DNA from: an uncultured bacterium
GTDB taxonomy: Bacteria; Bacillota; Clostridia; Oscillospirales; Oscillospiraceae
Assembly: GCA_947073515.1 (NCBI GenBank)
Contig: CAMTMC010000023.1
Coordinates: forward strand, 1-37,504
Length of the DNA stretch: 37,504 nt
Reading direction: 5' to 3'
The position numbers and the translations under genes were made by a program. The notes below the pieces were generated by a model. It was not told where the DNA came from. It saw only the letters and a list, made by a program, of their open reading frames with translations, and made no database searches. Of this stretch, positions 31,731-33,978 are shown piece by piece (positions within the stretch are counted from its first letter, which is position 1; every line of letters begins with the position of its first letter).

Positions 31731-31934
31731 TCAGATCACATCCAGGGAGTCAATGACCTTTTCAAACTGCCTGCGCTTGATCTGTATGCGGTTCCCGTTC
31801 ATTATCAGCCAGTTGGCGTCCGGGTTTTCCTCCGCCAGCTTCCGCAGCTTCTTTTCCCCGATACGGAAGTATTTAGCGGCTTCCTCAATGGTCAGTGTGT
31901 ACTTCTCCCAGATAGGCACATCAGGATAACTCAT
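31731..31934 (-). CDS. xis: Tn916-type excisionase Xis
   Basis: A 67-aa winged-helix DNA-binding protein that directs Int to excision. [31 protein letters not shown] and [26 protein letters not shown] are nearly the Tn916 Xis sequence. It overlaps the MazF-like gene by 4 nt (ATGA) and precedes int by about 87 nt, so the three are probably co-expressed. Confidence 0.95.
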
Positions 31935-32464
31935 ATCCGCGCCCCTCCTTTCGGCGTGACCAAATATTCCATACCAGGGCGCTGGCCGCAGTAGATGCAG
32001 ACTTCCTTTTCAGCCCGTCCTGGTGCGGCCTCCCGCAAAGCAAAAGCGCCTGTGCCGCGAAAAGCGTCAGCACAAGCGCCGCATAAGCAGAGGGTCAGTT
32101 TCGGGGGTACGGGTTCGATCAGGCCGATGCTGACCGCCAGGGCGTGGTTGATGCCCCGGATATGTTTTTCGTCCAGTCTGCCGATGTAGCCGGACAACCG
32201 CTGCTTGTCTATGGTGCGAATTTGCTCCAAAAGGACAAGCGAGGGCTGTGCCAGCCCGTTCCCGGCGTCCAGGTAGTAGTGGGTGGGCAGCTTGGCTTTG
32301 ACGTTGGCCTTGCTGGTGACGGCGGCGATAATGACGGTGGGGCTGTGCTTGTTGCCCACATTGTTCTGGATGATAACGACGGGCCGGGTGCCCTTCTGCT
32401 CCGAGCCGATCCCGTGGCCCAGGTCGGCGTAGTACAGTTCGCCGCGTAAATATGTCCTGCTCAT
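31931..32464 (-). CDS. MazF/PemK-like protein with cysteine-rich C-terminal extension
   Basis: Residues 1-118 are a MazF-type ribonuclease fold: [29 protein letters not shown] with the conserved Arg27, and AAVTSK with Thr50, the two residues used in catalysis by EndoA. A 55-residue extension follows with CLCGAC and CIYCG, suggesting a zinc-binding module that plain MazF (about 116 aa) lacks. No antitoxin gene is adjacent. The ATG at 32464 has GGGGAGG 9 nt upstream. The frame extends 21 codons further without a site. The coupling to xis suggests a role in element control or maintenance. Confidence 0.85.
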
Positions 32465-32704
32465 GGTGTTTGACCTCCCCATAAAGATTAGACGGCCTGC
32501 ACCGCCTATGTAGGAGCCGGACAGCATGACATATCAAGGTTGGCGGAGCATAAACGCTCCCGTTTCCATAAACCTGTCCCGCTGTCCGGCTTATATGAAA
32601 GCAAGCCTATTTGTCCGCGACACCCCGGCCCGCTATGGGAAGTCATCAAACGGCTGGCGGCGCGCCTAAAGGCATTTCCTTCGGGCACCAGCTCCACGGG
32701 AATT
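32465..32704. other. Non-coding stretch upstream of the MazF-like gene
   Basis: These 240 nt hold the nested hairpin and, at the edge, the perfect repeat CCGCATG/CATGCGG (32711-32729). I see no convincing gene, although short open frames exist on both strands. Confidence 0.45.
32515..32591 (-). promoter_or_regulatory. Nested RNA hairpin upstream of the MazF-like gene
   Basis: AGCCGGACAGC (32515-32525) and GCTGTCCGGCT (32581-32591) are perfectly complementary over 11 bp. Between them GGAGC and GCTCC form an inner hairpin (32545-32560). The structure ends 51 nt before the MazF-like start. It could be a leader or processing signal. No T-tract is present. Confidence 0.55.
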
Positions 32705-33067
32705 TCACCCCCGCATGGTTCTCATGCGGCTGCTCTCATTGCCTGCGACGGCTTCACGCTGGAAAACGCGATCACGCTCGGACTGTGACTGAACAGGAGT
32801 CTCATTGTCACCATCGCCGGTCGTGGCCGTACCGGGAGCCGCCCGGTATTTCATGGCCGCTGGTTCTCGCTCCATGCCGGACGGCAGACCGTGGACGAAA
32901 TGATAGTGTGGCATCCCGCTGTCGGCGTCCGGCACATCCTGGCGCAGCGTCAAAAGAGGCTTGCGGCGATGGGACTGTGCTTGATGAATGGGTATGAAGT
33001 TTTCAAAGGTCAAACCCATTCGCCGCACAAACGAGGAACAGGTGGAAGGCTTTCCATCGCCCTCCAC
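32705..33067 (-). CDS. Hypothetical 120-aa protein of the element
   Basis: I do not recognise this. MGLTFENFIPIHQAQSHRRK, then LLTLRQDVPDADSGMPHYHF and VHGLPSGMEREPAAMKYRAA read like a natural protein rather than a shadow frame. The second half is Thr/Ser/Glu-rich and probably disordered. The GTG at 33067 has GAGG 6 nt upstream. A start at the internal Met (MGLTFENF) is possible but has no site. It lies between the sigma-like and MazF-like genes in the same direction. Its first codons lie in a strong hairpin. Confidence 0.4.
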   Translation of the reverse strand: MEGDGKPSTCSSFVRRMGLTFENFIPIHQAQSHRRKPLLTLRQDVPDADSGMPHYHFVHGLPSGMEREPAAMKYRAAPGTATTGDGDNETPVQSQSERDRVFQREAVAGNESSRMRTMRG

Positions 33068-33086: not shown

Positions 33087-33608
33087 CTAAATTGTAACCT
33101 CCCCGGACAAGAAATTTTTAAGTTTCTTCAATGCAGAAGAAATTGACTTCATCACAGCAGGGTGCTTACATCCCTCCATATCCGCAATCTGCTCGTATGT
33201 AAACTCCCCAAAGTAGTACAGCACCAGGCGGCGGCGCTGCTTTTCAGGCAGATGGGCGATTGCCTGATGCAGCTTGTCCACCTCCATCCGCTGGGAAACG
33301 GTTTCTTCCACGCTCTCCTGGGGCTTTGCGGCCCGCCTGTTCAGCGTTGCCTCCGTCACCTCGGATTTCTCATAGTGCCTGTCCACTTCATTGAAAAAAG
33401 AAAGATCGTCCAGCTCAAACTCGTTGAACGCATCGAACAGGGTCTTGTCGATCTCCATCCAGCGTTTCACTCCGCCGCCGTCCTTGAAGAACAGATAGAA
33501 GCGCGGGTGAGCGGTGTTGATTCCAGCGGTATATATCTCGTAGGGACTGTCCTCGTCCCTCCGGCGCTTGGGCCGGGGGTCAAGATTTTTCGGATGGCTG
33601 TCTGCCAT
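33087..33608 (-). CDS. Sigma-70-like regulator of the element
   Basis: A 173-aa protein with a C-terminal sigma region 4-like helix-turn-helix: HLPEKQRRRLVLYYFGEFTYEQIADMEGCKHPAVMKSISSALKKLKNFL at about residues 118-166. The N-terminal half (YLFFKDGGGVKRWMEIDKTL) is typical of the sigma-like genes that Tn916-family elements carry upstream of xis and int. It has no clear region 2, so it may act as a partial sigma factor or activator. GGAGG lies 9 nt before the ATG, inside the edge of an inverted repeat. Confidence 0.85.
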   Translation of the reverse strand: MADSHPKNLDPRPKRRRDEDSPYEIYTAGINTAHPRFYLFFKDGGGVKRWMEIDKTLFDAFNEFELDDLSFFNEVDRHYEKSEVTEATLNRRAAKPQESVEETVSQRMEVDKLHQAIAHLPEKQRRRLVLYYFGEFTYEQIADMEGCKHPAVMKSISSALKKLKNFLSGEVTI

Positions 33609-33620
33609 TTTCTTTTACCT

Positions 33621-33650
33621 CCAGTCTAAATTTTTGAAAATTCAGACTGG
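33621..33650. promoter_or_regulatory. Inverted repeat overlapping the ribosome binding site of the sigma-like gene
   Basis: CCAGTCTAAATTTT (33621-33634) and AAAATTCAGACTGG (33637-33650) match at 13 of 14 positions around TG. On the minus strand the stem ends in ACTGG, the first bases of the ACTGGAGG ribosome binding site. It may be an operator or a translation-controlling hairpin. Confidence 0.65.
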
Positions 33651-33712
33651 ACGGCGGGCCGCGACAACCTACACCAAAGGCGGGCTTTTCATGCCCATCG
33701 ACTGAAAATGAC

Positions 33713-33746
33713 AAAAAACGCCCGGCAGGTCGTAAACCTACCGGGC
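33713..33746 (-). terminator. Rho-independent terminator ahead of the sigma-like gene
   Basis: On the minus strand GCCCGGTAGGT pairs with ACCTGCCGGGC over 11 bp (one G-U) around TTACG, followed by G and TTTTTT. It lies about 105 nt upstream of the sigma-like gene, so it would stop most transcripts before that gene. The TAG stop of the 47-codon ORF is inside the first arm. Confidence 0.88.
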
Positions 33747-33881
33747 GGGAAGGAGAATAAAATTTAGCTGTGGCGACATTGTATAGTTCATCTTCATGGC
33801 CGGAATATCCCTTGGCGGGGGACAGGCTTTTTTTGATGGATCACTCTTTGGCAAAATTGGTCGAAACTCTTTCGGCCTCAT
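33738..33881 (-). CDS. 47-aa leader ORF upstream of the sigma-like gene
   Basis: The ORF starts with ATG 7 nt after a strong AAGGAGGT and reads MRPKEFRPILPKSDPSKKAC followed by PPPRDIPAMKMNYTMSPQLN and FILLPAR. Its TAG stop lies within the 5' arm of the terminator at 33713-33746. That placement is the hallmark of translation-coupled attenuation: a ribosome reaching the stop would open the terminator. The CPPPR segment could slow ribosomes. I do not recognise the peptide. Tn916 uses a different leader peptide ahead of tet(M). Confidence 0.7.
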   Translation of the reverse strand: MRPKEFRPILPKSDPSKKACPPPRDIPAMKMNYTMSPQLNFILLPAR

Positions 33882-33904
33882 GGCGGCTACCTCCTTGAGC
33901 CGCC
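33882..33904 (-). promoter_or_regulatory. Hairpin with the Shine-Dalgarno sequence in its loop
   Basis: On the minus strand GGCGGCT and AGCCGCC form a perfect 7-bp stem around CAAGGAGGT, and the ATG of the 47-codon ORF follows at once. The GGA in the loop fits what CsrA recognises, but a ribosome-accessible site is the simpler view. Confidence 0.75.
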
Positions 33905-33921
33905 TTGGTTATTGCTATAAT
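33895..33921 (+). promoter_or_regulatory. Possible promoter of a plus-strand small RNA
   Basis: TTGAGC (33895-33900) and a perfect TATAAT (33916-33921) are 15 bp apart, a short spacer. The -10 overlaps ATTATA on the other strand, so divergent promoters may share this site. Confidence 0.4.
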
Positions 33922-33944
33922 TGCGCCTTGGTGCTGGAATAAAA

Positions 33945-33978
33945 GAACGGCGGCTTTCATTTGTGAAAACCGCCGTTC
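33945..33978 (-). terminator. Hairpin, possible minus-strand terminator
   Basis: GAACGGCGG and CCGCCGTTC form the outer stem, with TTTCA/TGAAA inside. On the minus strand the stem is followed by TTTTATTC, so it could end transcripts coming from the SDR gene before they reach the leader ORF. Confidence 0.55.

Follow-up and report, generated by a model that had tools for sequence, protein, structure and literature searches.

The window analysed here, 37,504 nucleotides (nt) of contig CAMTMC010000023.1 from an uncultured Oscillospiraceae bacterium, carries on its minus strand a mobile element of the Tn916 family, in which Pfam matches to Integrase_DNA, Tn916-Xis and Sigma70_r4 occur together. 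Ahead of the element's orf7-type sigma gene lies a short leader open reading frame (ORF) that contains a run of seven adenines and is followed by an intrinsic terminator (Table 1). We propose, at a probability of about 0.7, that this leader is part of a frameshift-gated transcription attenuator, in which a -1 ribosomal slip on the A-run would carry ribosomes through the terminator to the start of the sigma gene. An earlier note on this DNA had described a translation-coupled attenuator, and three of its observations hold for the window: the 47-codon ORF with a strong ribosome binding site (RBS), its TAG inside the first arm of a strong terminator, and as target the sigma-like gene of a mobile element, with Tn916-type Xis and Int downstream. 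The in-phase seven-A run, the open -1 frame (to 33580) and the hairpin around the Shine-Dalgarno sequence were absent from that account.

In the proposed mechanism, ribosomes would initiate on the leader ORF, whose Shine-Dalgarno sequence and start codon lie within a small hairpin. Most would stay in the 0 frame and stop, at least 15 nt before the terminator in most relatives; the terminator would then fold and the transcript would end before the sigma gene. A minority would slip -1 on A_AAA_AAA, read past the 0-frame stop and hold the terminator open by translating through it. These ribosomes would reach the start codon of the sigma gene, with coupled translation there or, among some relatives, an in-frame fusion. 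How frequently the sigma gene is switched on, and thereby xis/int and transfer, would follow from the rate of frameshifting, which would tie activation to the state of the ribosome. That slipping occurs and is ribosomal, that the terminator is opened and that a signal changes the rate, we infer from the arrangement described below.

Slippery run and reading frames

The layout, conservation and structure of the leader were computed for a pooled set of 74 loci, 51 found through the leader peptide and 23 through the sigma gene, which comprise 64 distinct leaders in 22 clusters (ungapped leader identity below 70% between clusters). The A-run stands in the same phase (xxA AAA AAA) in every locus and is exactly seven nucleotides long in 73 of them; the remaining one (L067) has nine. 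All 51 loci of the first set have A7 in the phase A_AAA_AAA, as TCA (or TTA) AAA AAA, and lysine codons in the downstream genes are evenly split (AAA 318, AAG 313). A phase-blind survey, made to avoid a search bias towards Lys-Lys, started from sigma-gene homologues and accepted any run of at least six A upstream in an ORF with a start codon and a Shine-Dalgarno sequence (56 loci, with at most two hits listed per locus). Among the loci read, 26 of the 27 with a run of at least seven A have it in this phase (one as A9), and one seven-A run is out of phase (L066); strongly diverged leaders are among the positives (L071, L085, L092, L099, L108). By both counts (74/74 and, phase-blind, 26/27) the leader holds the conserved in-phase X_XXY_YYZ heptamer of a -1 frameshift cassette. 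In L074, judged by eye, A_AAA_AAG takes the place of A7.

The frame that such a slip would enter is the one found open. At least 118 nt after the run are open in the -1 frame at 72 of 74 loci, in the 0 frame at four and in the +1 frame at one, and the -1 frame reaches within 25 nt of the downstream start or beyond at 61 of the 68 loci with an assigned downstream gene. Counted by cluster, the frame passing the terminator is -1 in 21 of 22, 0 in one and +1 in one, and the frame reaching the downstream gene is -1 in 16, +1 in one (the A9 leader) and 0 in none; shuffles predict about 1 of 22 for the -1 frame. Eighteen of 22 hand-picked representatives are stop-free to the downstream start in the -1 frame and none in the 0 or +1 frame. 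No ATG, GTG or TTG opens the -1 frame within 60 nt 5' of the run in 73 of 74 loci (exception, L061), and with CTG counted and no distance limit it has no start of its own in 50 of the first 51 (exception, L052). As in a frameshift cassette, the new frame extends well past the 0-frame stop and has no other entry.

The end of the -1 frame varies. The window has it 26 nt into the downstream gene, beyond the sigma start codon, and the two large groups have it 94 or 64 nt into the gene. The frame is fused with the downstream gene in L028, L036, L037, L039 and L044, its stop overlaps the downstream ATG as ATGA in L041, L052 and L059, and it ends 7 to 60 nt short of the gene in L012, L013, L040, L043 and L056. 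In two relatives (L041, L052) the 0-frame stop comes soon after the lysines.

The single nine-A leader (L067, run at -242 from the sigma gene) has its downstream open frame in +1, not in -1. The two extra A shift the downstream frame; a slip by one nucleotide would still be needed, as though this requirement had been preserved.

Terminator, leader start and leader peptide

A terminator was scored in 59 of the 64 distinct leaders (none in L045, L055, L071, L085 and L092), with its 3' end at +101 to +123 of the run in all 59 and at +113 to +119 in 54. The 0-frame stop lies at least 15 nt before the stem in 49 of these 59 leaders (39 of them at 15-25 nt), 4 nt before it in one, and inside or beyond it in nine, namely five of the window subgroup and L027, L032, L036 and L067. 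Passages of PMC4824070 report for E. coli about 90% termination when translation stops 28 base pairs (bp) before a terminator and less than 10% when it stops 5 bp before, the two being exchanged by a one-base frame change. By this measure, the 0 frame of most leaders would keep a termination-permitting distance and the -1 frame would not.

A start codon with a Shine-Dalgarno sequence and an open 0 frame to the slip site (71 of 74 loci) ahead of a terminator is the layout of an attenuator, and to this extent the attenuator of the earlier note stands, since leader, start signals and terminator are widely conserved. Its particulars fail: the stop-in-stem geometry is confined to the nine leaders above, and the CPPPR codons, which in that account could make the outcome depend on ribosome speed, give way in relatives to PSP, SPP, 'PR stop' or IRR, which speaks against CPPPR as a pause signal. 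A 0-frame stop in or just before the stem, as in pyrBI, is therefore a property of the window and not of the family. In the window subgroup, in-frame ribosomes should already weaken the terminator because the 0-frame stop lies in its 5' arm, and it is probably leakier there; a translation-coupled 0-frame model may hold partly in this subgroup and does not describe the family.

In the window, 33600-33760 folds far better than shuffles (z -7.15), as does the longer region 33600-33925 (z -5.19). A terminator scan gave eight sites in the stretch scanned vs 6.3 in shuffles, so that the evidence is the stem itself and not the scan.

The leader start is structured across relatives. The region was folded in 21 of the 22 cluster representatives, the contig of the remaining one being too short, and the fold is on average much more stable than that of shuffles (mean z -2.95, Stouffer -13.5). 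Base pairs were counted in 24 chosen relatives (20 cluster representatives, L050 and L085 being left out, and four others): 87.9% of cells pair and both sides have changed in 6 of 10 pairs. In none of 500 shuffles is the paired percentage, the number of double changes or the covariation score as high as observed; the pair-type count in the same relatives, equalled or exceeded in 88 of 500, does not stand out. Pairing includes the first letter of the start codon: all seven GUG starts have a partner for it (C in six, U in one), and AUG starts have a U opposite it in 8 of 17. The leader start is thus predicted to be held in structure, which should keep its use low or controlled; we know of no ligand for this hairpin.

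Column-shuffle tests mostly found no amino-acid constraint in the 0 or -1 frame, and a stalling or regulatory peptide is disfavoured by them. Because amino-acid constraint is weak and patchy while frame, stop and terminator are kept, this suggests that the act of translation matters more than its product.

Evidence against and alternative explanations

Several observations weigh against a frameshift-gated attenuator. Part of the A7 invariance is due to a query peptide with Lys-Lys, 29 of the 56 phase-blind sigma loci are without such a leader run, and the heptamer is interrupted in L088 (where the -1 frame is still open). In E. coli, according to passages of PMC5009743, ribosomes shift less readily on A_AAA_AAA than on A_AAA_AAG. 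Several clusters have a weak hairpin 3' of the run or none (mean z -0.61, Stouffer -2.86 for the 22 cluster representatives), ACG replaces the start codon in L012 and L013, the leader of L053 is without its 5' half, and the -1 stop lies 35-182 nt before the assigned downstream start in 7 of 68 loci. There is some amino-acid signal in the 0 frame, in four representatives (p 0.0135 and 0.034) and in the C group (p 0.007 and 0.022 after the run, 0.020 and 0.048 before it), from which a role of the peptide keeps some support. The shuffle probability of the cluster counts, 1.5e-18, is too optimistic as the clusters share ancestry. In a control, some frame was open over -200 to -25 of the sigma gene in 16 of 30 loci without a recognised leader vs 18 of 25 with one; this control is not clean, several of the 30 holding, by eye, leader remnants missed by the filter (L073, with ATA at the expected leader start; L074; L086, which is the place of L053 and also lacks the 5' half; L088). 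As the openness control fails to discriminate, the case rests on frame choice, phase and stop-to-terminator distance. The frame choice of 16 : 1 : 0 is a stronger statement than openness alone; even on the premise that one frame or another has to be open, a split of 16 to 1 departs strongly from equality.

The main rival is slippage of RNA polymerase on the A-run, by which some transcripts would gain or lose one A and normal translation would cross the terminator. Any homopolymer can slip, and the A9 of L067 with its +1 open frame would suit a one-nucleotide slip either way at a longer run. Seven nucleotides are short for polymerase slippage, however, and it needs no phase, yet in the phase-blind loci the run keeps almost without exception the phase of tandem-tRNA slippage; we regard this explanation as unlikely. 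Quite improbable is the model of the earlier note, a pyrBI/tet(M)-type attenuator with 0-frame ribosomes ending in the stem and pausing on CPPPR setting the outcome. It fits the TAG inside the stem of the window, PPP being a known pause motif, and the weak 0-frame amino-acid signal of some sets, but few leaders have their stop in or beyond the stem, PPP is not conserved, and heptamer and -1 frame are left unexplained.

We give very little credence to a third possibility, that the -1 frame encodes a real fusion protein and the terminator is incidental. Such a protein would be positioned where orf10 of Tn916 is drawn (between orf9 and orf7 in passages of PMC7288454); the -1 frame is open beyond chance, and in the D group it is under amino-acid constraint past the 0-frame stop (p 0.005). 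Against this, the B, C and E groups give no -1 amino-acid signal in column shuffles, groups differ in the frame that reads the terminator, and a -1 stop after the downstream start suits coupling, not a defined protein.

Relation to known systems

Among known systems, pyrBI-type enterobacterial attenuators have a leader ORF that runs into the terminator, and a close ribosome prevents termination. Unlike these, the present leader enters its terminator only in the -1 frame in most relatives, the 0-frame stop lying in or beyond the stem only in the window subgroup and a few others. The -1 frameshift cassettes of insertion sequence (IS) elements, like the leader, have an in-phase slippery A-run heptamer. 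So does dnaX (described in passages of PMC5009743), but dnaX and IS cassettes make protein products, whereas here the product would seem to be the act of translating.

The nearest mechanism is that of the ermC leader, in which ketolides induce frameshifting. As passages of PMC5009743 describe it, frame-shifted ribosomes pass the stop of this upstream ORF, unfold the spacer RNA and switch on the next gene; this is given as the case of productive leader frameshifting, that of pheL being called incidental. In ermC the antibiotic induces the shift and a translation start is unmasked, whereas the present leader has a conserved in-phase heptamer as candidate shift site, a transcription terminator as barrier and the sigma gene of a conjugative element as target.

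The tet(M) leader (orf12), with which the earlier note drew an analogy, is likewise described (in passages of PMC7288454 and PMC9632896) as a translated leader with terminating structures in the Tn916 family whose outcome depends on what the ribosome does. The present leader lies upstream of a gene for a sigma-70 region 4 protein, where the tet(M) leader has one for tetracycline ribosomal protection, and would bring a second reading frame into play. Leader and target do differ, as the note had said, and the analogy needs revision in that the same leader precedes orf7 itself in a Tn916-type element. Antitermination control within the same element family is also known from canT of Tn916, which, according to passages of PMC11658703, is a cis-acting antiterminator located between orf8 and xis with distant terminators as its targets; the leader described here precedes orf7. 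That 2024 study of Tn916 termination and antitermination covers T1-T3, Porf7 and canT, its passages on these name no leader before orf7, and a search of its main text returned no 'frameshift', 'leader' or 'attenuation'.

Searches of the openly licensed PMC literature gave no description of this leader. Attenuators and frameshift cassettes are each known; their combination as a gate on a terminator seems new.

Tn916 and Tn1549 carry resistance to tetracycline and vancomycin, and how elements of this kind become active in a minor fraction of cells is a long-standing question. We give even odds to the wider proposal that a leader not described before, common to Tn916, Tn1549 and many relatives, uses a programmed -1 frameshift to gate the terminator before the regulator orf7, with rare recoding as the trigger of excision and transfer. 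Were it true, it would help to explain why Tn916 is active in only about 0.1-3% of cells and why translation inhibitors relieve its attenuation (both reported in passages of PMC9632896). It would be the first natural attenuator switched by the reading frame itself, and would clearly exemplify, in nature, recoding that serves to move the ribosome rather than to make a protein. The conserved shift site before orf7 is a concrete candidate for a sensor of ribosome state in many elements, also in those without tet(M).

Elements and genes carrying the leader

The leader is found in Tn916-type elements (L062, in pCF10; L069, L070, L115, L116) and in a vanB element (L061) that we take to be of the Tn1549 type. 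L115 and L116 have 77-78% DNA identity to the Tn916-type region and keep run, phase and terminator. Upstream ORFs vary between groups (the dehydrogenase is the only one tested with Pfam), and the cargo named in plasmid records includes an ABC transporter, vanB and tet(M). Ten downstream genes were tested besides that of the window: six pass the Pfam sigma-70 region 4 cut-off (L015, L026, L038, L040, L044, L062), L012, L042 and L061 have helix-turn-helix or sigma matches below it, and L056 has none. Because upstream ORFs differ by group and downstream regulators vary, the leader seems to belong to the control module of the element and to travel before more than one kind of regulator.

Rfam SQ2397 (RF03532) has no match in the window at the gathering score. 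It lies just upstream of the Tn916-type leader, where its match in L062 ends 13 nt into the leader ORF and leaves heptamer and terminator uncovered.

A further copy of the leader precedes another sigma gene in the genome of the window (contig C22, 36563-36664(-); L034, L064), and this genome may for this reason contain two or more such elements. In one genome (G005), two different leaders (L003, L006) share the same upstream stretch at contig starts; this identity suggests an exchange of cargo exactly at the leader border. A dehydrogenase-MerR pair closely like that of the window stands before leaders of another group (L026, L030), another sign of cargo exchange at the leader. In L119, an E. 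faecium plasmid with the same sigma protein accession as L061, the leader is without its 5' half and has an ISEnfa3 transposase gene upstream.

Samples and searches

The leader peptide was matched in 5 of 149 related genomes, that of the window included, and alignments of relatives placed the leader in 25 loci of the genome collection; it was found in 15 of 394 genomes of the order and 6 of 391 of the class, two lists that overlap. As a 0-frame peptide it had no relevant match in plasmids (five weak, unrelated Komagataeibacter records) or in phages, and an alignment search of viral contigs found none. The Tn916-type leader region was unmatched in E. coli genomes in a near-mode search.

Downstream counts are based on 68 loci, no downstream gene being assigned in L019, L030, L033, L045, L046 and L055; downstream starts were chosen by script, except in L011, L060 and L116, where they were set by hand. 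Left out of the counts were L001 and L049 (the window again), L004, L005 and L006 (the places of L016, L027 and L020), L007 (though a seven-A run is visible by eye), the partial sigma matches L079 and L114, and sigma matches without a locus. L089, L090, L091, L095 and L096 had already been counted as L050, L038, L040, L039 and L043. L073, L074, L086 and L088 were left out because the filter found no start or A7 was not intact, as were L117-L120 (by eye, the upstream gene is unrelated in two of them; another lacks the run, and one, a vanB-type element, has an insertion sequence in the leader).

The window locus

In the direction from cargo to integrase, the minus strand of the window carries a short-chain dehydrogenase cargo gene, a long hairpin whose T-run is on the opposite strand, a terminator, the Shine-Dalgarno hairpin, the 47-codon ORF, the 13-bp terminator, a hairpin over part of the sigma Shine-Dalgarno sequence, the orf7-type sigma gene, an Rfam pemK RNA match, a PemK-like toxin gene, xis and int.

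Table 1. Leader and neighbouring features of the Tn916-type element in the window
Feature	Position	Strand	Remarks
Leader ORF, 0 frame	33738..33881	-	47 codons, stop TAG separate; coding 33881-33741; AAGGAGG just 5'; product MRPKEFRPILPKSDPSKKACPPPRDIPAMKMNYTMSPQLNFILLPAR
RBS hairpin	33882..33904	-	stem GGCGGCT/AGCCGCC; Shine-Dalgarno 33896-33890 in loop; start codon directly after
Slippery heptamer A_AAA_AAA, proposed -1 frameshift site	33828..33834	-	TCA AAA AAA GCC; in-phase run of seven A
Hairpin directly 3' of heptamer, possible frameshift stimulator	33799..33827	-	GCC..GGC outer stem; from folding
-1 frame entered at heptamer	33580..33834	-	without own start codon; crosses terminator; ends with TGA
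Intrinsic terminator	33713..33747	-	hairpin 33747-33719, 13-bp stem (9 pairs G-C), 3-nt loop, then TTTTTT; 0-frame TAG 33740-33738 in 5' arm
Second hairpin	33618..33650	-	takes in part of sigma Shine-Dalgarno (33622-33618); crossed by -1 frame
orf7-type sigma-70 region 4 gene, proposed target	33087..33608	-	Pfam Sigma70_r4_2, E 3.2e-12
Tn916-type Xis	31934-31731	-	Pfam Tn916-Xis; downstream of sigma gene
Tn916-type Int	31643-30456	-	Pfam Integrase_DNA; downstream of sigma gene
Upstream terminator	33945..33978	-	terminator scan; would close the cargo transcript before the leader
Long hairpin, A-rich loop	34001..34041		T-run on + strand

Stretches like the upstream terminator are seen by eye in most relatives displayed. 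The long hairpin would stop transcripts arriving from the element side, and a look-alike in the Tn916-type locus lies, by eye, within the Rfam SQ2397 match. No promoter was found inside the leader, either in the window promoter scan or by eye. In the second hairpin, both sides of one pair have changed in the diverged relative L012 (by eye).

The PemK/MazF-like toxin gene (31931-32527(-)) lies between the pemK RNA match and xis, which it overlaps by 4 nt. Matches to the Rfam pemK RNA (RF02913) occur in the window (32694-32808(-)), in L062 (3433-3533) and in L061 (3407-3504). Because they sit where canT of Tn916 lies, between orf8 and xis, the pemK RNA family and canT may be the same RNA.
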